A DNA stretch of 64,000 bases from Beroe forskalii (taxonomy: Eukaryota; Ctenophora; Nuda; Beroida; Beroidae). Where the stretch lies: positions 71,537-135,536 of the forward strand of contig WFMF01000362.1 in assembly GCA_011033025.1 (NCBI GenBank). Direction: 5' to 3'. This document shows, piece by piece, positions 4,040 through 56,225 of this stretch (position 1 is its first letter; the number at the start of each line of letters is the position of its first letter). The notes below the pieces were generated by a model that saw only the letters and a program-made list of their open reading frames with translations, had not been told where the DNA came from and searched no databases. Both the position numbers and the translations under genes were made by a program.

Positions 4040-5350
4040 TCATGATGCCCGACATACCGCTCGTTCTAATGCTTTTCTACCTTTTCCGGTAACCATGAAA
4101 GGTGACTGATATATTTGCTTGTCTCCGCCACTTGCTGTTGTGTCCAGCTTTTCAGCAAGTTGGTTCAGGAACTCTTCATAGCTAGATTTAAATCTGGCAA
4201 CCAAGTTCTTTGAGTTGTGATAATTACATGTTTTATGTTTGATTGAGGCTTTGATAGATTTCAAGTCCTCAAAATGAATGTCCTCTCTCACTTTCCAAAT
4301 TTTCCAAAATGCAATCATTTGATAATCAATATTTGCTCGTTGTCCCTCAAGTACATTCATGTATTTCTCCGTCTTCACTCTTTCAGCTTCATCTATTAGC
4401 TCACAAATCAAGTCAACTTCAGTGCCTTGAACGTTGGCCACTGATTCTCTAAGCCTTCTCTTCAGATTTTCACCGATCCAATCTTGCTCATTAGATTGTG
4501 CATTTGACAGGTAAAAGTTAATGAACGGCACCACCATCTCACCTCTCACTTCAGTCATCTTGAGTGGTATTGTAAACTCCCACCGTACGCCATCCTCGAT
4601 GAGCATGGTGCGCGATGAAAATCGCCAATTACCCTCATTTTTTGCTGCCTCTTCCTCCTCTATCCATTCGCGATAAGTGACCATGTGTTCAATATAGTCA
4701 CTCACAGCACTTCTAAACTCGGATGTCATTCTTTTAACTTTCTCGCCACCACCCCCGGTGTTTTTGCTTGGCTCAACCATGTCGGTGATAGTTTTCTCAA
4801 TGTCTCGAAACTGGAGAAAATTACAGAGGTCAACAACCATGTAACCAGATTTGGTGGATTCTGGTGCCCGGTATTGGGGTTCACCCCAACACTCATTCCT
4901 AAACTCGTTGGCAAGCTGCTTGAATTTGCCCTGAATTGCTCTCTGCTGTTGCTGTGAGAGGTTAGGAAAACCTCCAATATAACATTCCTGCTTTTCGAAC
5001 TCATCTCTGTGCCTGGCATAGAACCTACTTAGCCTGGGTGCCGAGTCTTTCATCGCAATGAAATGTTTCTTATGCTGCACACTATATTCTCTGCTGTTGA
5101 TGACCAGCTTTCCTTCTTCATTTGCTGTTTTTCTGTTTGTAGATAGCCTTACCAGCTCCTCCCTAGCGGCGTAGTTTCTGTCCAGTGTAGCTAACTGTTT
5201 CTTTTCTGCTGCACTCTTGTTGGATTTCTGTCTGAGCCCTGCTATCCTAGATTGTATTTCAGCAAAGGTTTGTGCCTGAATTCTCCTCCTCTCTTTAGGT
5301 GTTGTCACCTTTTGATTCTGTTTCATCTGAATCTGGTCCAGGTCCAACAT
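4040..5350 (-). CDS. Hypothetical 436-aa protein, charged, N-terminal helical
   Basis: This is the longest open frame in the window. It starts at an ATG at 5350 (MLDLDQIQMKQ) and ends at 4040 without an internal stop or obvious intron. Residues about 18-90 are rich in Lys, Arg, Glu and Gln (KERRRIQAQ, SAAEKKQLATLDRNYA) and look like a basic helix or coiled coil. The middle contains a Gly run (NTGGGGEKVKR, near residue 200) and a stretch of aromatic and hydrophobic residues (RWEFTIPLKM, VVPFINFYLSNA) that reads like a folded domain. The C-terminus is basic (GKGRKALERAVCRAS). I see no signal peptide, membrane segment, zinc finger or nuclease motif. A promoter-like block lies 210-430 bp upstream. 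It could be a host single-exon gene, the large last exon of a spliced gene, or an ORF from an uncharacterised mobile element. I do not recognise the family. Confidence 0.6.
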   Translation of the reverse strand: MLDLDQIQMKQNQKVTTPKERRRIQAQTFAEIQSRIAGLRQKSNKSAAEKKQLATLDRNYAAREELVRLSTNRKTANEEGKLVINSREYSVQHKKHFIAMKDSAPRLSRFYARHRDEFEKQECYIGGFPNLSQQQQRAIQGKFKQLANEFRNECWGEPQYRAPESTKSGYMVVDLCNFLQFRDIEKTITDMVEPSKNTGGGGEKVKRMTSEFRSAVSDYIEHMVTYREWIEEEEAAKNEGNWRFSSRTMLIEDGVRWEFTIPLKMTEVRGEMVVPFINFYLSNAQSNEQDWIGENLKRRLRESVANVQGTEVDLICELIDEAERVKTEKYMNVLEGQRANIDYQMIAFWKIWKVREDIHFEDLKSIKASIKHKTCNYHNSKNLVARFKSSYEEFLNQLAEKLDTTASGGDKQIYQSPFMVTGKGRKALERAVCRAS

Positions 5351-5559
5351 TTTATGCCAGTTTGCCTGTCTCCTTTATCCGTATTCTATTGTCTTGAATA
5401 GTACGATTTACAAAATCACAAACTAATAACTAACATTGATACTTTGGAACAAATAAAATTGAAGAATTAATTACATTTCAAATTCAAAGGTTAAATATTC
5501 TCCAAAGTATCGAGTTGTTAAGGAACAAAAAATTCTGAAATCTTACATGCAACAGCTGC

Positions 5560-8641: not shown

Positions 8642-9138
8642 GGTAATCCGACGGAAGTTCGAACGACGGAAGTTCGAAACGACGGAAGTTCGAACTTTTC
8701 GGACTTCCGTCGTTTCGAACTTCCGTCATGTTTGGCGACGGAAGTTCGAACTATAGACTTGCTTTCCCTCTCTTTACACTTGGGGACCTGCCTTATAGGG
8801 TTCTGTTTAAGCGCTAGGGTTAGCCATGCTACCATTGATTCACATATGATATCCGCGGGTAGATCAGGTGATGGGGACACTAGAAGTGGGACACTACAAG
8901 TACAACATGCAAGTAGCTTCTCGCATATCGCAGCTTGTGATTCCAATCAATGTACTGATCAGGTGATGGTAAATGGTCCTGACTGTGTGTACATGACAAC
9001 ATGCGAGATGTCTTCTCGCATATCGCGCTGAAAGGGACATTATATTGCGATTCACTTGATTGCTCGTGGAAGAACTTCTCGCATATCGCACCATTGATTG
9101 TGATATCAGCTATCGTCATTACGCGATGGGATCCTATA

Positions 9139-9739
9139 AACTAGTATATGGACCTCCTTGGGAAGGCTCCTCATGTGATGATTGATGGCACCTTCAAGTC
9201 AGCCCCTCAGCTCTTCTACCAACTTCTGACGGTGCATGGGCTCTTTGATGATGGCTTCCGCTTCCCCCTCGTCTACGCCCTCCTCCCCGGGAAGACGCAA
9301 CACCTCTACACCACCCTCTTCCAGGAGCTGGATTCCTTCGGAGTGGAGCCTCAGTCTGTCCTGTGTGACTTTGAACCAGCACTCTTCCAAGGAGCAGAAG
9401 ATCGGAGCCCTTGCCTTTGTGGACCTTGGGGACGTTGATGAGGTGTGGGAGCTCCTGAGACCTACTCTCCCTTCAGACCTGGAGGATTTCACTGAGTACT
9501 ACGAGAGGACATGGATCGGCACCCCTGGACGTCCTCCCTTCTTCTCACCCTGGATGTGGAACCATCATGAGGCTGTCCTCGCTGGTCTACCTAAGAGCAG
9601 TAACCTGGCTGAGGGCTGGCACAACGGATTTGCTGGTATGATGGCTACCCCCAACCCATCCATCTGGCACCTCCTGGACTGTCTCAAGGTGGAACAGTAC
9701 ATCACGGAGTGGAAGATGGTGAAGCCCTCGCACTGTTAG
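9139..9739 (+). pseudogene. MULE transposase fragment, catalytic-core and C-terminal parts
   Basis: The first stretch reads DLLGKAPHVMIDGTFKSAP, then FYQLLTVHG, FPLVYALLPGKTQHLY and CDFEPALFQGA. This is the MULE-domain core with the first two catalytic acidic residues (the D of DGTFK and the D of CDFE). The reading then jumps by an internal deletion to KIGALAFVDLGDVDEVWEL, and on to YYERTWIGTPGRPP, MWNHHEAVL and SSNLAEGWHNGFAGM, the usual MULE C-terminal region. The FLYWCH N-terminus and the segment between CDFE and the C-terminal part, where the third acidic residue lies, are missing. It cannot make an active transposase but could be mobilised by an intact relative. Confidence 0.88.
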
Positions 9740-9899
9740 ATCCGCCGTCCAATGCTCGCCCTCGGACCCTTCGGGTCCTCGGGCTCGCGGCTCGGGCCTT
9801 CGGCCCTCGCACTGTTAGGACCGCCGTCCAATGCTCGCCCTCGGGCCCTTCGGGCCCTCGGGCTCGCAAACCGCCGCGGGGGGCTTGCCAGCCCCCTGA
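9725..9899 (+). mobile_element. GC-rich stem-loop cassette with Helitron-like 3' end
   Basis: A roughly 79-bp unit (CCCTCGCACTGTTAG..., then CCCTCGG-CCCTTCGGG-CCTCGGGCTCGC) occurs twice. The cassette ends in a short hairpin GGGGC-TTGCCA-GCCCC followed by CTGA and then T. A similar end occurs at 38865-38885 (GGGCGC-TTGCCA-GCGCCC-TGA-T). A 3' hairpin followed by CTRR before a host T is the Helitron signature, although here the hairpin abuts the CTGA. Copy 2 of the MULE lacks the cassette. Non-coding. Confidence 0.5.
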
Positions 9900-10197
9900 T
9901 TATGATATTAGTACTTTATTCATGATTCACTTGTCTATTTGACTAATGTATCACCGATTCAAAGCTGAGGTTTCCCTTGTAAAGCTTCAGCTAAAGGTAA
10001 AAGCTGATGAGCTTTCCTTGATAAAGCAGTAGCTATAAGTAAAACCTAAAAGTATAAGGAGCCATGAGCAATTCGAACTTCCGTCGTTCGAACTTCTGTC
10101 ATGTTTGGCGACGGAAGTCAGAGCTGCTCATTTTGTTCGAACTTCCGTCGGTTCTGACTTCCGTCGTTCGAACTTCCGTCGTACAATCGTCAGAGAG

Positions 10198-19370: not shown

Positions 19371-20752
19371 GGTAATCCGACGGAAGTTCGAACGACGGAA
19401 GTTCGAACTTTTCGAACTTCCGTCGTTTCGAACTTCCGTCATGTTTGGCGACGGAAGTTCGAAATTTAGACTTGCTTTCCTTCTCTTTATACTTGGGGGC
19501 CTGCCTTTGCCTTATAGGGTTCTGTTTAAGCGCTAGGGTTAGCCATGCTACCATCGATTCACATATGATATCTGCGGGTAGATCAGGTGATGGGGACACT
19601 AGAAGTGGGACACTACAAGTACAACATGCAAGTAGCTTCTCGTATATCGCAGCTTGTGATTCCAATCAATGTACTGATCAGGTGATGGTAAATGGTCCTG
19701 ACTGTGTGTACATGACAACATGCGAGATGTCTTCTCGCATATCGCGCTGAAAGGGACATTATATTGCGATTCACTTGATTGCTCGTGGAAGAACTTCTCG
19801 CATATCGCACCATTGATTGTGATATCAGCTATCGTCATTACGCGATGGGATCCTATAAACCATCCGGGGCCGCTTCTTCCACTACCGCCAGGCAATCCTA
19901 CGCCGCTTCTCTTCTGAGGGATTCCTTCCAGAGCTGGAGGTTGCAGACTCCCCCATCAGACTCGCCTTCCAGAAGATCGGAGCCCTTGCCTTTGTGGACC
20001 TTGGGGACGTTGATGAGGTGTGGGAGCTCCTGCGACCTACTCTCCCTTCAGACCTGGAGGACTTCACTGAGTACTACGAGAGGACATGGATCGGCACCCA
20101 TGGACGTCCTCCCCTCTTCTCACCCTGGATGTGGAACCATCATGAGGCTGTCCTTGCTGGCCTTCCTAGGAGCAGTAACCTGGCTGAGGGCTGGCACAAC
20201 GGATTCGCTGGTATGGTGGCTACCCCCAACCCATTCATCTGGCACTTCCTGGACTGTCTCAAGCAGGAACAGGACATCACGTAGTGGAAGATGGTGAAGC
20301 AGCAGCTGAAGGAGTCCCCTGAACCTCGCCGGAAGAAATGGATCGAGTACGATGCCCGCCTGCAACCTCTCATCGAGGACTACGACAATGTGGAGGACAA
20401 GCTGGACTGCAGAGATTTGGAACTCTGATGTCCGTGTGAATAATATTCTAATATTCTTTGTTTGTTATTCTTATGATAGAGTGCTGGGAATTTGAATATT
20501 TGAATATTTACTATTATATGGTACTGTGATGAGGTTTCCCTTGTAAAGCTTCAGCTAAAGGTAAAAGCTGATGAGCTTTCCCTTTTAAAGCAGAAGCTAT
20601 AAGTAAAATCTGAAAGTATAAGGAGTAATGAGCAATTCGAACTTCCGTCGTTCGAACTTCTGTCATGTTTGGCGACGGAAGTCAGAACTGCTCATTTTGT
20701 TCGAACTTCCGTCGTTTCTGACTTCCGTCGTTCGAACTTCCGTCGTACAATC
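19371..20752 (+). mobile_element. MULE DNA transposon, copy 2 (internally deleted)
   Basis: The ends are the same as in copy 1 (GGTAATCCGACGG... / ...CGTCGTACAATC). A perfect 9-bp target duplication CTGGGCTAG lies at 19362-19370 and 20753-20761. The left non-coding part with the three CTTCTCGCATATCGC boxes is kept, with one change in the first box. The N-terminal and DGTFK regions of the transposase are deleted, leaving the C-terminal third. Confidence 0.93.
19860..20428 (+). pseudogene. MULE transposase C-terminal fragment with stop
   Basis: The open reading gives RGRFFHYRQAILRRFSSEG, then PIRLAFQKIGALAFVDLGD, YYERTWIGTHGRPPLF, SSNLAEGWHNGFAGMV and WHFLDCLKQEQDIT. An in-frame TAG follows at 20281-20283, where copy 1 has GAG. 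The reading then runs on through WKMVKQQLKESPEPRRKKW to LDCRDLEL. The MULE CxxH-type motif (usually GCFFH) reads GRFFH here, so the Cys is lost. This copy shows the C-terminus absent from the other two. Confidence 0.88.
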
Positions 20753-30275: not shown

Positions 30276-31786
30276 GATTGTACGACGGAAGTTCGAACGA
30301 CGGAAGTCAGAACCGACGGAAGTTCGAACAAAATGAGCAGTTCTGACTTCCGTCGCCAAACATGACAGAAGTTCGAACGACGGAAGTTCGAATTGCTCAC
30401 TGCTCCTTATACTTTTAGGTTTCACTTATAGCTACTGCTTTATCAAGGAAAGCTCATCAGCTTTTACCTTTAGCTGAAGCTTTACAAGGGAAACCTCATC
30501 AGCTTTGAATCGGTGATATAGACAAGTGAATCAGCCCCGGATGGTGGTAGAAGGCCAAGCTGTCTGTGCTCCTTGGAAGAGTGCTCGTTCAAAGTCACAC
30601 AGTACAGACTGAGGATCCACTCCGAAGGAATCCAACTCCTGGAGGAGGGTGCCGGGTGGTGTAGAGGTGTTGCGTCTTCCCAGGGAGGAGGGCGTAGACG
30701 AGGGGGAAGCGGAAGCCATCATCAAAGAGCGCATGCACCGTCAGAAGTTGGTAGAAGAGCTGAGGGGCTGACTTGAAGGTGCCATCAATCACCACATGAG
30801 GAGCCTTCCCAAGGAGGTCCAAGCAGTCCACTGTGCCGAAGAGGATGGTGCGGCGATGGACCATGTCGTACCCAGAATCCCACAGGAGGAAGGGCTCCTC
30901 ATGAAGGAGTAGCTTAGACTTCGCCTCCCAGGAGAGGGAACTCATCAGTTCTCCGACCAGCCTCTTGGAGGATTCACCAGTCTGCTCTGCCTTCCGCTTC
31001 AGCTGCTGCCTGCCAGTGTGGACATCGTTCTCGACGGGGAGGTGGTTGTGAGGAGAGCTGCCGGTGACGTTGGTTCCGTGGGAGACGTTGAGCTTGCCTT
31101 TGCAGGACTTGTCCACACACCGCCAGAGAACACGTCGCCTTTCTCCTTGTTGAGGGTGTAGCGGAAAAGTGGTAGAGGAGGTTCTGGCGTCCACGAGTGC
31201 GCCCATCAAGTGCGCTTTGATGAAGTTGAACTGGAGGAGGAAGACATCTTGATGATGGTTGTGATATTGACAAGGCTAATATACTAGTTTATAGGATCCC
31301 ATCGCGTAATGACGATAGCTGATATCACAATCAATGGTGCGATATGCGAGAAGTTCTTCCACGAGCAATCAGGTGAATCGCAATATAATGTCCCTTTCAG
31401 CGCGATATGCGAGAAGACATCTCGCATGTTGTCATGTACACACAGTCAGGACCATTTACCATCACCTGATCAGTACATTGATTGGAATCACAAGCTGCGA
31501 TATGCGAGAAGCTACTTGCATGTTGTACTTGTAGTGTCCCACTTCTAGTGTCCCCATCACCTGATCTACCCGCGGATATCATATGTGAATGAATGGTAGC
31601 ATGGCTAACTCTAACGCTTAAACAGAACCCTATAAGGCAGGTCCCCAAGTGTAAAGAGAAGGAAAGCAAGTCAATAGTTCGAACTTCCGTCGCCAAACAT
31701 GACGGAAGTTCGAAACGACGCAAGTTCGAAAAGTTCGAACTTCCGTCGTTTCGAACTTCCGTCGTTCGAACTTCCGTCGGATTACC
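30276..31786 (-). mobile_element. MULE DNA transposon, copy 3
   Basis: The element is inverted relative to copies 1 and 2. Its boundaries are GATTGTACGACGG... and ...CCGTCGGATTACC. A perfect 9-bp target duplication GTGTTAGGA (30267-30275 and 31787-31795) comes from the minisatellite it interrupts. It keeps the N-terminal half of the transposase and the non-coding part with the CTTCTCGCATATCGC boxes. Confidence 0.93.
30535..31240 (-). pseudogene. MULE transposase N-terminal fragment with FLYWCH finger
   Basis: The reading gives RRVLWRCVDKSCKGKLNVSH followed by SSPHNHLPVEND, the Cys and His-x-His part of a FLYWCH zinc finger. The linker LVGELMSSLSWEAKSKLLLH, GYDMVHRRTILFGTVDCLD and the catalytic core DGTFKSAPQLFYQLL and LVYALLPGKTQHLYTT follow. 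A small indel then shifts the frame to LLQELDSFGV and VLCDFERALFQGA, where the element jumps to its end sequence. The frame is also shifted near the N-terminus (YHF/TLNKEKG region), so this is a pseudogene. Confidence 0.88.
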
Positions 31787-33826: not shown

Positions 33827-35130
33827 CTGCGGGAGATTGCCGGGAGTACTCCGAGAGTCCTCCGGGAGTATAACGACATTACGGGAGTCCTCCGGGAGTC
33901 CCACGGTATTCCTACTGTATGGGATTCCTCTGGGAATTCCTAACTGAGTTCTACAGGAGTCCCTCGGGAGTCCCCCGGGAGTCCTGCAAGAGTCCCTCGG
34001 GAGTATTCCAGGAGTCCCACAAGAGTCCTACGGGAGTCCTGCGAGAGTCCTACGGGAGTTCCAAAAGAGTCCTATGAGAGTCCCAGGGGAGTCCTGCCAG
34101 AGTCCCACGGGAGTCCAATGGGAGTCCTAAGGGAGTCCTACAGATTCCTATAGGAGGCCCACGGGAGTCCCAAGGGAGTCCCCTTGGAGTCCTGCAAGAG
34201 TCCCACGGGAGTCTCGAGGGAGTGCCACGGAAGTCTCGAGGGAGTGCCACGGGAGTCTCGAGCGAGTCCCACGGGAGTCTCGAGGGAGTCCCACGGGAGT
34301 CTCGAGGGAGTCCCACGGGAGTCTCGAGGGAGTCCCACGGGAGTCTCGAGGGAGTCCCACGGGAGTCTCGAGGGAGTCCCACGGGAGTCTCGAGGGAGTG
34401 CCACGGGAGTCTCGAGGGTGTCCCACGGAGATTCGAGGGAGTCCCACGGAGTCTCGAGGGTGTCCCACGGAGATTCGAGGGAGTCCCACGGAGTCTCGAG
34501 GGAGTCCAACGGGAGTCTCGAGGGAGTCCCACGGGAGTCTCGAGGGAGTCCTATGGGACTATGAGAGTCTCGAGGGAGTCCAACGAAAGTCTCGAGGGAG
34601 TCCCACGGAGTCCAACGGGAGTCTCGAGAGAGTCCCACGGGAGTCTCGAGGGAGTCCCACGGGAGTCTCGAGGGAGTCCCACGGGAGTCTCGAAGAGTCC
34701 CACGGGAGTCTCGAAGAGTCCCACGGGAGTCTCGAGGGAGTCCCACGGAGTCTCGAGGGAGTCCCATGGGAGTCGAGTCCCCCAGGAGTACTCCGGAGTC
34801 CGGGAGTCCCACAAGATTCCAACGGAAATCTTACGGGAGTCCTGCGAGAGTCCCATGGGAGTCGTACAGCTACGGGAGTCCCCCAGAAGTCCTCCGAGAG
34901 TCCCACGGGACTACGGGAGTCTCGAGGGAGCCCCACGGGAGTTCGAGGGAGTGCTGAGGGAGTTCTACGGGAGTCTTACCAGTGGACTCCCGAAGGACTC
35001 CCGTGGGACTCCCTAAAGACTCCTGTAGGACTCCCAGAGGGCTCCTGGGGGACTCCCGGAGGACTCCAAGAGGACTCCCGTCAGCCCCTGTAACACTCCC
35101 TTGGGACTCTGGCAGGGCTCCCAGGGGAAT
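33827..35130. repeat. Minisatellite, 22-bp unit with CTCGAG
   Basis: The well-ordered core (about 34180-34780) repeats a 22-bp unit with the words GAGTCTCGAGGGAGTCC and CACGG over roughly 27 copies. The flanks are degenerate GGGAGTCCYRCGGGAGTCC. Units invert near 34980, where GACTCC words replace GGAGTC. Long open frames in all directions are repeat artefacts. Confidence 0.9.
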
Positions 35131-36272
35131 CCCGCAGTAATTCTCTTGAATAGTTGAATGACTGATATAAAATCTATGCAAGGTCTTTCAGGAGTTATTG
35201 CAAATTCTACTTTCAATGCATGGAATTGAAGAGGTTGATATTAATACAATCATTTATTGGTGTTTCCAATTTCAAGTTTGTACACTGTACAGTTACCATT
35301 TGTGTTATAACTCAGTCTTCTATTGATAAACTCATACTTAAATTATGCAAATATTTATATTCCACATTGATTGGTAAAAATAAGATAATATTATCATGAT
35401 ATGAAATATGGATAAATTTGCCTAAAGCTTCACTATGTTGCATATGCAACCACCAGGCCACTGTACAAATACAGGCATAATATATCCAGTTCTGCCTAGT
35501 GGTTGCATATGCAACCATGCACCATTTGACTGGCAACGATTTCCCCCTAGTGGTTGCATATGCAACCAGGGGATTTCTGGCCCCATGGGGGTCCAAAACC
35601 TCAAATTTTGATAGTAGAAGTTATGCGACCTCATCTAGAAACAAAATCCAAAATTTCATCAAAATCGGACCAGGTTCTGACCTACCAGGCATTAAGGGGT
35701 TAATAAGTAAACTGCGGCCACCAGGTGATGGGGGTGCGATGCAAGGTTCTCGTCACTTGAGTGCGAATCGGAGTTGAGCAATAAGACAATGTCCTACGCT
35801 AGAATCAAGGAAATAATTACCTAAATCGTGTACAACAAAGAACTTGCAGTTCCAATATCGGCTACCAGTAACCCAATCTATTGATATTGAATGATAATTT
35901 CTGCTGGAAGACGTAGGTCTACAGAGGTACCAGGAACTCTGTACTCTAGCATGTTGATAAAAATACACACTTCAGCTTTAGGTTACACAATCGCCGCTGG
36001 TGAAATGCGGTACAGGAACATTGCTGTATCGCGATATCTAGTACACAAATATCAAATATATGCTATAGTGAGATATCACTGGTGCAGCACTTCTGTACTT
36101 TGTTTTGTTGATTACACTCAGTTTTTAATATATGAAAACTTTTATAAGGGGGGTATAAGAAACTTATCCTCGGATTCTCAAAAATTCAAGAAACCTACTA
36201 GTACCTAGCGTAGAATTTCGGAAAAATCAAGAAAGTTCACCAATTTGCAATTAACAAGAATTTAGAATTAAG
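35131..36272. other. No gene; three GGTTGCATATGCAACC dyads
   Basis: The palindrome GTTGCATATGCAAC occurs at 35437-35450. The full GGTTGCATATGCAACC occurs at 35501-35516 and 35552-35567, each of the latter two after CTAGT. The rest is plain DNA with short frames. Confidence 0.6.
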
Positions 36273-36973: not shown

Positions 36974-37036
36974 TTTTATTATGAAATAATGGAGTAAAAC
37001 CGGTGATATAGAAAATTATAAATTGCTATATGTCTA

Positions 37037-37700
37037 GGATAGCCAAAAACAATTGAAAATTGTTTGGGTTACGCAGCCACTCCAGTACCTAAAATTATAC
37101 GATTAAAACTATTGATATGAGTTTAAATCGCAGCCTGTCCGTGGCGGTGTGCTTTGGTTACTAAGAAATAAGCAGAATTAACATTCATCAACTCAGTGCC
37201 GTTTGAATCTCCTTCAGTTAACTTTAATTAAGCGTGAGTGGACGCGTAAAGAAAGTACCTATAATTTCTAGCATTCTTTGAAGTGTGTTTTCACGTGAAA
37301 AGGCTTGAACGCATGCTGAAATTAATCGTACGTTCGTCGTTCATCCCTATTTGATGATTGAAATCGTCATCTTTTAACGACTTTAAGGGCGATTGCAATG
37401 TAAAAAATGAGTCCACTACTTTAATAATGCCGTTAGGAAACACGAAGTCACACTTATTATGGTTGGAGTTACATCATCGCGATTGTGAAGATATTCCACA
37501 AGAATGAAGTAGAAAGTTGTTACGGGTGTACTGTGTAATAAGCTCACATCATATGCGTGACCAAGATATTTCTTAGTAACCAAAGCACACCGCCACGGAC
37601 AGGCTGCGATTTGAACTCATATCAATAGTTTTAATCGTATAATTTTAGGTACTGGAGTGGCTGCGTAACCCAAACAATTTTCAATTGTTTTTGGCTATCC
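37037..37700. mobile_element. Foldback MITE, copy 1 (outer part of left arm)
   Basis: The ends are inverted for about 130 bp, starting GGATAGCCAAAAACAATTG and including TTTGGGTTACGCAGCC and the stretch through GGCGGTGTGCTTTGGTTAC. A second copy in inverted order lies at 45585-46241. No coding capacity. Confidence 0.8.
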
Positions 37701-37789
37701 ATATCACTCTTTTTTGGCATAAAACGTACGACAATCAATTCAAGTTGTGATAATTGCTACTGCCAAGAACTTTCATGCACTAAACGTGA

Positions 37790-38300
37790 GAATTACGTCG
37801 CTATCATTTTGACTTTTTGAGTTATAGGCGATAATTACTTTAATTGGTCAATTAACTAATTAAGGGGTTGGCAACCGATACTTCGACAGAAACGAATTAT
37901 TCGTAGTTTTGGCTTAAATTGATGATGCCGTTGAAATTGAGACGCTAACATCTTGACTTTTTGAGTTATATGCGATAATTACTTTAATTGGCCAATTACC
38001 TAATTAAGCGGCGGGCAACCGGTACTTAGATTAAACGAATAAATCGTAATTTCACCGTAAGTTACTGATGCCGTAGAAATTAAGTCGCTATCATTCTAAC
38101 TTTTTCAGTTATAGGCGATAATTACTTTAATTGGCCAATTAACTAATTAAGCGGCGCGCAACTGGTACTTAAATTAAACGAATTAATCGTAATTTCGACG
38201 TAAGTTAATGATGTGGTTGGAATTCAGACGCTATCATTTCTACTTTTTGAGTTATACGCGATAATTACTTTAATTGGCCAATTAACCAATTAAGGAATTA
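37790..38300. repeat. Tandem repeat, about 143-144 bp, four units
   Basis: Units start at about 37800, 37944, 38087 and 38230 with GCTATCATT...TTTTTGAGTTATA and continue CGATAATTACTTTAATTGG and CCAATTAACTAATTAAG. The right arm has one unit fewer. Confidence 0.85.
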
Positions 38301-38706
38301 TCATTTCAAAATTTAATATGGCCTAGTGCACGCACACTATTCTGAAGTTTCATATGCCGTTTAGATTATAATTCTATCTTTTATAGTTCTCGAGAACACT
38401 CAAACACAATTTCTATCATCGAGTCGGGTCGGGTCGTAGTCCATGTTCTAATTTTTGATAAAATAGCGTTTTTTTGATAATTTATTGTGAGAAAACGACG
38501 TGGTCGATTTTCATGAAATTTACAGGGTTTGTTATTCATGTCATGGACTATGTCTGTGCAAATTTTCGTGATTAAAACGGATCGAATTAACAGGTTGAAA
38601 GCGTGACTCGAAAATCGCGATTTTCGCGATTTACTGTATTTTTATATAATAGGCGCTGGCAAACGTATTTTTCAATACTTGAAAAACGGTTCCGCTACCA
38701 CTTTTA

Positions 38707-46249: not shown

Positions 46250-47276
46250 ATATAAAAAAGCTGGAGATCTTGTGCAGGAGGTACAAACCCACGATTTCAT
46301 AACATTCAGCACCATCATATGACCCCATGGTGAGGTCAAAGAGGTCATTGGTCTTTTTCACTCAACAAGAGTTCTCACTTCTCGTTGAATAAAAGAGCCT
46401 TTTTAGCTTGCTTGATGATGCTCCTATCTGATGGGGAAATCGTGCAATGTGACTCTGCGAAATCGAGGGCCTTGTCGAGGAGAGATTCTGTGATTGATGG
46501 ATAGAAAGTCTCTATGTCGAACTGGATAAACCTCATGTCTTTGTCGTTTCGTGCAATCATGTCATCAAACCAGTCAGTCACGTCTTTGGTCTTTCTCCAT
46601 TGGTTGAATCCCAAGCTGCCGTTTGTGTTCTTGATGGCGTTTTCTAAAATTTGTTTGCTGACTTTGCCGAGATCTGTCTTTGAAGGGTTAATTAGGCGGC
46701 AGCTTGGGTTAGAGGGGAAGTTGGTCTTGTGGTCTTTAACTGTGATGAAGCTTTGATCAGTCGTGTACATCTGCATTCTGTCAGCGAGTTTCAGGGACTG
46801 AGCAAGTACTGCTGATTCTTTGTCGATGGCATTCTTGGTCTCTTCAGGTACTCTGTAGTTATACTGTCGTGGAGCAGTTTGTTGTAGTCGTCGACTGACA
46901 CTTTGTAGAGGTTGTTCGTCTTGTCAGCCGGCAGTATAACTTTTCCAGAGTCCCGTATCTCTCTGATGTCCTTTGTCATCTTTTTCTGGAAGTCACTCTT
47001 GTAAGTCTTGAACTCGATTCCAGAGACGAGATCGTACAGGTCATTCTCAAACTCATTCAGTGCTGAATTCTGAGGTGGGGTGTTAGAAGTCCGGAATCCA
47101 TATTTCTCTTCAGTTACATTCTTCTCCGATGGATTTTCAAAGAAAAACACCTTCCAACGAGCTCTCTTTATGAAACTCTCTGTCTTGGCGATGAGTGATT
47201 TCATGAATGAGTCTTTCGAAGGCAGGGGGATGTTCTTTTGGGAGTAGTCCAGGTTCACCTTGTCAAACATTATCAT
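46250..47276 (-). pseudogene. Penelope-like element, N-terminal half of RT ORF
   Basis: The frame starts at ATG 47276 (MIMFDKVNLDYSQKN). It continues SGKVILPADKTNNLYKVSVD and DDYNKLLHDSITTEYLKR. After a frameshift near 46790 it gives SFITVKDHKTNFPSNPSCR, QILENAIKNTNGSLGFNQW and MRFIQFDIETFYPSI (RT motif A, with the catalytic Asp). After another break near 46375 it gives [13 protein letters not shown] and VGLYLLHKI. These are hallmark segments of the Penelope-like RT. The reading stops against the foldback MITE, so motif C and the GIY-YIG domain are missing. A pseudo-LTR lies just upstream (47332-47515). Confidence 0.85.
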
Positions 47277-47331: not shown

Positions 47332-47515
47332 GATACCAGTGTGTTGAAATTCAATTTCACAAAGTGCTCTAGCATAAGCGAGTGAGTTACAACAAATTAA
47401 AACACAAGGTTAATCGTCTTTACTTTAAGTTTCATGGGTAAATTCATACCCAATCGTCAGAAGACAAGTAACATGAAAATAGTGGCAAAATGATCCTGAT
47501 CTACTCCTTTATAAA
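47332..47515 (-). repeat. Pseudo-LTR of the Penelope-like element (5' side)
   Basis: It matches 54882-55062 along its length in the same orientation, including GTGTGTTGAA, GTGCTC, TTTCATGGGTA, TACCCAATCGTCAGAAGAC and CTCCTTTATAAA. It lies about 55 bp upstream of the RT ORF start, whereas the other copy lies downstream of a GIY-YIG end. This is the arrangement expected for PLE terminal repeats. Confidence 0.75.
47416..47465 (-). ncRNA. Type I hammerhead ribozyme (PLE-associated), copy A
   Basis: On the minus strand: GUCUU (stem I), core CUGACGA, then stem II UGGGUA/UACCCA with a short loop, GAAA, and a small stem III (AC-U...A-GU, loop UAA). The GUA cleavage triplet and AAGAC closing stem I follow. 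All invariant core positions (CUGANGA, GAAA, UH) are present. The first stem II pair is U-U. Hammerheads of this short-stem-III type are known in Penelope-like terminal repeats. Confidence 0.8.
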
Positions 47516-47522
47516 ATCCATC

Positions 47523-47636
47523 GTTAAAGTTCAGCAATAAATCGAAATAAAAGATTCGTTTAAATGTTTAATTTTTTCAAAGTGGGGTTTTTTTAAAAAC
47601 GAATCTTTTATTTCGATTTATTGCTGAACTTTAACA
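47523..47636. mobile_element. 114-bp MITE with 39-bp inverted repeats
   Basis: GTTAAAGTTCAGCAATAAAT... is perfectly mirrored by ...ATTTATTGCTGAACTTTAAC. The interior is about 36 bp and T-rich. The outer TTAA on both sides would fit a TTAA target, but the true boundary is unclear. Confidence 0.75.
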
Positions 47637-54311: not shown

Positions 54312-54565
54312 CAATGTAAGTAACTAGCTAGTAGTTACTAGGTAGTGACTAGGTAGTGACTCACTAGCTAGTGGTTACTAGGTAGTGACTAGGTAGTGAC
54401 TAGGTAGTGACTAGGTAGTGACTAGGTAGTGACTACTAGGTACTAGGTAGAAGCTCAATTCCAGCTAAATATACGGGTATTCAGTGTTCAAATTTATTGG
54501 ATTTAGTTCTACTTTTTTAATTCTATTTTTTAAGAATACTTTCAGGTTAAAATCATTTTTCCTTC
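54312..54565 (+). repeat. Dispersed repeat with 11-bp array (copy 2)
   Basis: About ten AGGTAGTGACT units (11 bp) are followed by the conserved tail shared with 8300-8433. The array is longer and more regular than in copy 1. Confidence 0.8.
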
Positions 54566-54598
54566 AATTCGAAAAATACAAATTAATTATTAAAAATT

Positions 54599-54880
54599 CA
54601 TAATTAATTCCAGCAGCGTCCAAAAATTACAGTTTTACCGTCAAAAAATTCTAGAAATAGGTACAAATCATTGGTAGAAAGCTCGTTTAAAAATAATTTT
54701 TTCTTCTTGACGAAAATTAGCAATTTAATATTCAAAAATTCATAATTAATTCTAGCAGCGTCCAAAATTACAGTTTTACCGTCAAAAAATTCTAAAAATA
54801 GGTACAAATCATTGGTAGAAAGCTCGTTTAAAAATAATTTATTCTTCTTGACGAAAATTAGCAATTTAATATTCAAAAAT
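54599..54880. repeat. 142-bp tandem duplication
   Basis: 54599-54740 and 54741-54880 are nearly identical (CAGCAGCGTCCAAAAATTAC, AATAGGTACAAATCATTGG, CTTGACGAAAATTAGC). The few differences suggest a fairly recent event. Confidence 0.9.
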
Positions 54881-54881
54881 T

Positions 54882-55062
54882 ACGAGTGTGTTGAAGTTCA
54901 AATACACAGAGTGCTCAAGCTCTAGGAGCGAGCAAAATACAAATTGAAACACATCGATCTAAGTCTTTACTAATAGTTTCATGGGTATAAATACCCAATC
55001 GTCAGAAGACAAAGTTCAACAATGACAATGACGAAATAATCCAGATCTGCTCCTTTATAAAT
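54882..55062 (-). repeat. Pseudo-LTR of a Penelope-like element (3' side)
   Basis: Same family as 47332-47515. It lies about 265 bp beyond the C-terminus of the GIY-YIG ORF at 55327 and thus at the element's 3' side. It ends near CTCCTTTATAAA, as does its partner. Confidence 0.75.
54963..55010 (-). ncRNA. Type I hammerhead ribozyme (PLE-associated), copy B
   Basis: Minus strand: GUCUU, CUGACGA, stem II UGGGUA-UUUA-UACCCA, GAAA, stem III with CUAUUAG, GUA cleavage triplet, AAGAC. Compared with copy A the stem III/loop is CUAUUAG rather than CUUAAAG and the stem II loop differs, while the core and stem pairing are kept. Conservation of the fold under sequence change supports function, at least until recently. 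Confidence 0.82.
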
Positions 55063-55326: not shown

Positions 55327-56028
55327 CTAATAAAAATTTCCGTTTATGTCTACATTTTGAGATGAATTCAGCTTGTTTAAAAGATTGTGAGTGTCCTTTA
55401 ATTTTATGATTTGGAGTTTCTCGCTCAGGCAGAGGTCACAGTTAAACCTTCCGTTCTGATAAGGTCTAGCAAACTGCAAGATTTCCCATTTCAGCTGAGG
55501 GGTACGTCCATGATCCTTCATCTCCCAGAATTTCTTGGAGAGTTCAGTGTCCTGTTCGTGCTCCCTGTACTTCATTGAGTTCTTGTGCTTGGAGATCCTC
55601 TTCTTCACTTCCGGCTCTGATATGCCAATGTAGGAGAATGACTCAGTTGTATCAGATATGGTAGCTTGGTATACAACTGCTTTAGCACGACACTGGCCAT
55701 CCAAGGGACACTGCTCTTTGTTCCTGCAGTTGCAGGGCAGTGTCTGATTCTCCTCTGTTCTGTCTAGAGTCTTTCTGTTGTGAGACTTGATCATGCTTCC
55801 TATATTAGGGGTACAGGAATATGAGAGTTTTACGTTGTTCCTGTTCAGAATGTGAAACTTGTGTCGAGGGGAAAGTGCTTTTCCAATAGTTTGAAAAATT
55901 CCTTCCCGATCTTTGTGGTAACACTCACTAAACGGTGGGTTGAACCAAATGATTGCTCGACGACGTCCCTGTCTTTTAGGTTGGGGATGAGGTGCTCTGT
56001 TTCCAGTGAAAATGCTCGTTATGACCAC
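55327..56028 (-). pseudogene. Penelope-like element, C-terminal part with GIY-YIG endonuclease
   Basis: 233 codons without a stop. They begin in RRRAIIWFNPPFSECY and FHILNRNNVKLSYSCTPNIG, the conserved region after the RT. LPCNCRNKEQCPLDGQC (Cys cluster) and the GIY-YIG domain follow: SFSYIGISEPEVKKRISKHK, TELSKKFWEMKDHG, PQLKWEIL and FNCDLCLSEKLQIIKL. The CxxC...His/Cys pattern and the YIG...R...H order fit EN-positive Penelope-like elements. The frame is intact here but truncated at its N-terminal side, where a poor-quality patch begins. It is probably the same family as 46250-47276. Confidence 0.88.
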
Positions 56029-56039
56029 TTTTCTTGAGT

Positions 56040-56225
56040 GCCTCTTTTTGTTTTTAAACGAAAACCCCCTTTAAAAGGGCCTTTTTGGAAAATTTTTTAA
56101 ACCCAACAAAATTAAAAGGGGAAATTAAAAAACCGGGGGTAATTTGCCCCAAATAATTAAATTTTATATTTTAAAACCCCTTTAAAAAATTTTTAAACAC
56201 CTTTTCGTTTTTTCAACAAAAATAA
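56040..56225. other. Homopolymer-rich low-quality patch
   Basis: Runs of three to seven identical bases nearly throughout, as at 15440-15860. It starts exactly where the PLE ORF ends, so the ORF truncation may be an assembly artefact. Confidence 0.55.

Follow-up and report, generated by a model that had tools for sequence, protein, structure and literature searches.

We analysed a stretch of 64,000 nucleotides from the ctenophore Beroe forskalii (assembly GCA_011033025.1, contig WFMF01000362.1, positions 71,537 to 135,536, hereafter the window) and found on its minus strand what is, with a probability of roughly 0.9, a type I hammerhead with a stem III of 3 bp, lying in the pseudo-long terminal repeat (pLTR) of a canonical, endonuclease-bearing Penelope-like element (PLE). 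The motif occurs twice in the window, as copies A and B, in elements of two different families. Around copy A only the 5′ half of the element remains, truncated by another repeat. The motif is better conserved than its flanks, which change faster, and units of the element end at a fixed short distance downstream of it. Our best guess is that the motif cleaves itself, in a dimeric or protein-assisted reaction. Hammerheads in Penelope-like elements are already known from many animals, and the kind is not new.

Read from 47465 to 47416, the minus strand of copy A is GUCUU CUGACGA U UGGGUA UGAAUU UACCCA U GAAA CUUAAAG U A AAGAC. Stem I has 5 bp (GUCUU/AAGAC, 47465-47461 with 47420-47416), stem II has 6 bp (UGGGUA/UACCCA, 47452-47447 with 47440-47435) closed by the loop UGAAUU, and stem III has 3 bp (A15.1-U16.1, C-G and U-A) with the 3-nt loop UAA. 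The cleavage triplet is GUA, and the predicted cut lies 3′ of 47421, between GUA and AAGAC. Copies A and B both carry the hammerhead core exactly (C3U4G5A6N7G8A9, G12A13A14, A15.1-U16.1 and H17), and the three stems are open at stem I and show compensatory change, as described below. The G10.1-C11.1 pair that is usual, if not strictly defining, at the base of stem II is absent, and a U.U mismatch stands in its place. The first-pass annotation, made from the letters of the window, had already claimed a complete core on the minus strand (CUGACGA, GAAA, GUA), stems I and II with a tiny stem III, and an unusual U-U at the base of stem II. Direct reading bears out the core, all stems pair as it described, and it was right about the mismatch. 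Its placement of the motif just upstream of a PLE reverse transcriptase (RT) frame on the same strand also holds, as RT pieces run from 47303 to 46254 with a likely ATG at 47276, and the evidence that follows supports its reading of the motif as a type I hammerhead, with a minimal stem III, belonging to a Penelope-like pLTR.

We scanned the 64 kb window with a descriptor consisting of CUGANGA, stem II pairs 10.2-10.4 with 10.1 left free, GAAA, one stem III pair, UH and four stem I pairs. It gave two matches, both on the minus strand, at 47460 and 55005, which are copies A and B, and none of 200 dinucleotide-preserving shuffles matched on either strand. Copy A scored 81.4 bits against our own covariance model, which includes copy A itself; the model was built from A and B copies of this genome and its E-values are rough. 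The motif of copy B differs from that of copy A in loops II and III only, and identity between the two is 43/48 in the motif, compared with 36/50 in the upstream flank and 53/82 in the downstream flank.

These copies belong to a large set. In the assembly of 216 Mb and 1134 contigs, a DNA search gave at least 45 matches with pLTR A and at least 49 with pLTR B, the two lists overlapping. From the loci L001-L060 we extracted 78 motif places, a number that counts some twice because two loci overlap there; the full core is intact in 64, all of which have U at both 10.1 and 11.1, and an identical 65-nt motif region recurs in 18 of the 78. A protein search with the N-terminal part of the window RT gave 38 matches, including long open frames at 44-52% identity. 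Altogether we counted eight Penelope-like families in the genome (A to H), all of them with the motif; the proteins of families B to H are 45-72% identical to that of family F, which family A matches at 42-45%. Two further searches with other family proteins returned 49 and 59 matches, mostly at the same places, and no loci were cut for them, so additional families are possible. A search among viral contigs yielded 204 pattern matches, with no relative among them by tblastn.

Motifs near the family frames were read directly after covariance-model matches. Our model reaches families outside its seed, with 20.7-21.8 bits (E 0.0009-0.0019) for C, D, E (L077, L086) and F, and only 15.9-16.9 bits (E 0.03-0.07) for G, H and the L069 copy of E. 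Motifs of type A stand beside long open RT frames in L062 and L064, and a motif of type B does so in L065. The first-pass annotation would have given up the motif had no other PLE copy shared its paired positions; dozens of copies do, and eight families have compensatory stems.

The stems, read by hand, have been exchanged between families. Pair 2.1-1.1 is U-A in A and B, G-C in C-E and C-G in F-H; pair 2.3-1.3 is C-G, A-U or U-A, with a mismatch in family G; and pair 10.4-11.4 is G-C, U-A, A-U or U.G. For a compensation test we took families A, C, F, G and H as representatives picked for their distinct stems, with four stem I and three stem II pairs each. Strands pair with their own partners at 32 of the 35 positions, and among the 120 possible assignments the true one alone reaches 32; across families the mean falls to 1.85/4 for stem I and 2.10/3 for stem II. 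The stem I pairs are incomplete in family F (3/4) and family G (2/4). Within 12 A/B variants, every lettered stem II cell pairs, including one-sided changes to GU or UG, and 98.8% of cells pair as against 35-45% for slid versions.

The surroundings of the motif are those of a Penelope-like element (Table 1). We set the boundaries of pLTR A at the points beyond which most genomic copies no longer match; about 58 nt separate its end from the likely start codon at 47276, and the TATAAA upstream of its motif is also present in the pLTR of copy B. The reading frame of copy A changes near 46845 and 46380 before the cut at 46254, which is made by a repeat also found at 37027-38151 (95% identical). 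Both window copies are incomplete, A being a 5′ half and B the 3′ end of another family. The family open reading frames (ORFs) carry, in order, FDIVEFYPSI (FDIxxFYPSI), GSxDGAE, YRDDG, CxC..CPLxxxC and a GIY-YIG-like segment, blocks which we take to be RT motifs and the endonuclease segment. On these motifs, RT and a C-terminal GIY-YIG domain are found in one ORF. Pfam support is weak: GIY-YIG was matched in one of seven relatives (E 0.0031), the RT halves gave no relevant match and the family B window fragment no GIY-YIG match, and a PDB sequence search with the ORF alignment returned nothing at E ≤ 1. In each of the eight families we found a copy whose predicted cut lies 144-172 nt before an ATG on the same strand that precedes a conserved YS-KN block (B 144, A 145, F 153, G 155, H 159, E 168, C and D 172); further copies of these families, which are fragments or inverted pLTRs, have no such block within 400 nt.

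Table 1. Positions of the hammerhead motifs and of the Penelope-like features around them, numbered along the window
Feature	Position	Strand	Basis
Type I hammerhead motif, copy A	47416..47465	minus	sequence, descriptor scan, own covariance model, compensation across families
Hammerhead motif, copy B (PLE family B)	54963..55010	minus	sequence, descriptor, own model
Family A pLTR around the motif, tail at 3′ end	47334..47561	minus	genomic copies match the query at 100-327
TATAAA, candidate promoter element, 48 nt upstream of the motif	47508..47513	minus	putative function
Head-to-head palindrome, 39-nt arms, 35 nt between	47523..47635	.	5′ end of pLTR A with a short, inverted piece of pLTR attached
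5′ half of Penelope-like ORF (N-terminal region and RT motif A)	46254..47276	minus	tblastn with family proteins, ORFs, self-comparison, ATG
Part of family B pLTR homologous to pLTR A, to its 3′ end	54881..55061	minus	sequence comparison
C-terminal part of family B PLE ORF (WFNPP block, CxC..CPLxxxC block, GIY-YIG-like segment)	55372..56047	minus	tblastn

The ends of the elements are also those of the group. Two end points downstream of the motif recur among the copies of family A, at about 82 nt for the direct, tailed pLTR and at 21-32 nt for the inverted one. Tandem pLTRs, a shorter inverted pLTR and a tail are all found, and L065 shows the tandem order of a GIY-YIG end, a pLTR with the motif and an RT start. 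Target-site duplications are also present: among inverted-pLTR insertions with both ends visible, 11 of 14 share at least 9 letters, a count that includes 4-5 letters of the pLTR end, compared with 0 of 182 cross-comparisons. The parts consulted of the description of canonical Penelope in Adineta vaga (PMC3846280) report the same features, namely pLTRs of which the inverted one is shorter, an optional tail, a palindrome where the inverted pLTR joins, and target-site duplications; the difference lies in pLTR A, which here stops short of the likely start codon.

Two repeats adjoin these elements. The one that cuts copy A is about 1.1-1.5 kb long and occurs twice in opposite orientation (37027-38571 and 46254-44877), with pieces 89-95% identical, inverted repeats of 125 nt that are 99% complementary, and 143-bp tandem units. 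A 141-bp tandem array at 54549-54881 ends where the pLTR of PLE B ends (54881), and recurs together with a PLE B copy in L038, at a distance of some 27 kb along the contig. One family A pLTR copy (L021, 1456-1682) departs from the majority letter at eight positions, each time with G in place of A, which would be compatible with A-to-I editing of its RNA prior to reverse transcription. Among the 36 pLTR pieces taken together the commonest changes are T>C (31), A>G (29) and G>A (28), so that L021 is one striking copy and the generality of its pattern is not established.

Several results weigh against a working hammerhead in a canonical element. Run without a positive control, Rfam gave no hammerhead match to the copy A region at gathering score; at E ≤ 10 there was none either, whether over 301 nt or over the whole window, and the eight family loci had none. 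RF00163 over this genome had 0 matches, in a run that scored only 73 of 27947 candidates and in which no control genome responded. At looser thresholds the best-scoring models are microRNA families, on the AT-rich palindrome. The first-pass annotation had named the lack of a covariance-model hit as a refutation, and taken literally that is the outcome with Rfam. An Rfam match is a detection tool and not a defining trait of hammerheads, and with all these motifs escaping Rfam our evidence is comparative. The folding that it had also proposed comes out divided: the unconstrained 71-mer forms stems I and II (z -3.0), the bare 50-mer keeps stem II and not stem I at its minimum free energy (MFE) of -11.1 kcal/mol (z -2.35), and the 101-mer forms neither stem I nor a hammerhead (z -0.98). 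Unconstrained folds also beat the hammerhead folds, with an MFE of -27.6 for the dimer and the -11.1 just given for the monomer. Moreover, 14 of the 78 extracted places lack the full core, no pair is changed on both sides within the A/B variants alone, and once the pLTR end letters are left out, only 3 of the 14 insertions have target-site flanks that share at least 9 letters, compared with 0 of 182 cross-comparisons. The core itself varies, with U3 and G8 in family G and U3 and A8 in family H, and the F motif beside the longest family F frame (732 aa), in L071, has GGGA for GAAA, plus further changes; L071 also has an intact F motif, which lies upstream of another RT copy, a broken one, on the opposite strand. 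Finally, in the sections available on PAc (Poseidon) of Anolis carolinensis, whose PLE hammerhead is protein-assisted, no cleaved ends were seen in RNA-seq and ribozyme mutants had no effect on in vitro insertion (PMC11167929).

Part of this evidence would also suit a structure conserved as an RNA recognition or folding element near the start of reverse transcription, with a vestigial ribozyme activity. The two fixed unit ends downstream of the motif, the unchanged insertion of the PAc mutants, the broken GAAA of the F copy with a long frame, and a U.U mismatch and tiny stem III that should weaken cleavage would all fit such a role. We nevertheless hold it to be unlikely: CUGANGA, GAAA and H17 are kept in the representatives of families A to F while their stems were exchanged, which is more than a mere recognition hairpin would need, and family H retains the 3-8 pair, as U-A. 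Positions of this replacement of C3-G8 by U3-A8 or U3-G8 in H and G are L070 (1300-1353), L081, L083, L087 and L088.

For copy A taken singly, there is about an even chance that its motif is an inert relic, inherited with a dead, truncated element and now idle, a reading that concerns the copy and not the kind. The element is cut at 46254, its frame is broken, and the identical 65-nt regions point to recent spread and not to selection on copy A; on the other side, its motif is intact, and identical motifs stand beside the long open RT frames of L062, L064 and L065. The ribozyme of this copy may still cut RNA, but it is impossible that it serves the element's own mobility.

Conservation could also come from coding, if ATGs within stem II and GAAA started the ORF. 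The motif does contain an ATG, within loop II in A and across 11.2-12 in A-D, one E variant, F and H, and according to the passages available the ORF of PAc begins within its hammerhead (PMC11167929). We rejected this explanation as very improbable, since frames from the motif ATGs stop after 7 codons in B and 16 codons in A, family G and the L069 copy of E have GTG in place of the motif ATG, and all eight families have the downstream ATG before the YS-KN block. A splice-donor idea was also considered, as GUAAAG at the triplet looks like a 5′ splice site and, in A, an exon beginning with the loop II ATG would be in phase with the RT frame; it was dropped because an ATG stands just before the YS-KN block in all eight families.

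As for how a hammerhead of this form would act, pLTR or read-through transcription of head-to-tail elements could give RNA with a motif in each pLTR. Two motif copies might then pair through the near-self-complementary 9-nt stem III segment, or be held by an element protein, and cleavage 3′ of GUA would release unit-length RNA with a 5′-OH at AAGAC. Such processing would part element RNA from upstream sequence. In 6 of the 8 families the 9-nt segment can form 8 pairs with a second copy, and in D and E it can form 3+3; for A, the hammerhead fold reaches -24.4 kcal/mol as a dimer compared with -8.4 as a monomer. Taken with the PAc precedent, these pairings and energies make dimer- or protein-dependent processing of tandem transcripts our best guess.

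Minimal type I hammerheads of Penelope-like elements have reportedly been described by Cervera & de la Pena (2014) and by Lunse, Weinberg & Breaker (2017). Leaving the U.U out of the comparison, we found no essential difference from those minimal motifs, which reportedly share type I topology, a minimal stem III, tandem-unit pLTRs and a stem III compatible with dimers. Sections of PMC7229834 and PMC6155905 likewise describe minimal hammerhead motifs in PLEs. PAc, as far as it is covered in the parts of PMC11167929 consulted, resembles our elements in having the motif at the pLTR-ORF junction of a tandem-unit element with RT plus GIY-YIG; its ORF starts in stem II with the cut 26 bp inside, whereas the likely start codon here is 144-172 nt past the cut. 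The activity in vivo and the role of PLE hammerheads are still called a mystery in the portion consulted of a review (PMC7761336).

The U10.1-U11.1 mismatch is found in 8/8 families and 10/10 family variants. It is rare but has been described before, and is here common to all the related families found. Perreault et al. 2011 (PMC3088659) report natural hammerheads with this mismatch and a natural C3-G8 to U3-A8 covariation, and cite earlier work in which U10.1-U11.1 supports more cleavage than any other mispair. That collection shares with our set both the U.U and the change seen in family H; its variants are spread over a wide collection, whereas here U.U marks all eight PLE families of one genome. 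In the literature passages covered, which leave aside the two likeliest papers, U.U does not appear as the common state of a whole PLE family set. Since it persists in eight families despite the turnover of stems I and II, with C3-G8 changed to U3-A8 in one, as selection would bring about and drift would not, U10.1-U11.1 might be a selected, lineage-wide PLE setting and no tolerated defect, giving a near-silent ribozyme until a second copy or an element protein completes the fold, although we find this quite unlikely. G10.1 is involved in metal binding according to parts of PMC7151607 and PMC6257768, and loss of its nitrogen, which helps to hold the A9/G10.1 metal ion, would produce the silence. 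If true, the selected U.U would time cleavage to the transposition complex.

The window has other features. Three related repeats (8642-10188, 19378-20752 and 30276-31786) have pieces 93-98% identical and TTCGAACTTCCGTCG units; an ORF overlapped by the third has a sub-threshold match to a MULE transposase (PF10551, E 0.00098). A 444-aa open frame on the minus strand (4040-5374) has no Pfam match at E 0.1, and an 11/22-bp tandem array (33841-35142) is open in several frames on both strands, with GVPRESRGSP-like repeats.

A genome with eight co-resident PLE families allows hammerheads to be compared side by side. In this one the stems have turned over, while the core and the odd U.U base are largely unchanged. 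As the Rfam scans, run without a positive control, are silent on all these motifs, standard annotation may miss this subset. As a natural series, the families can be used to ask what makes PLE hammerheads weak and whether a dimer or an element protein activates them.
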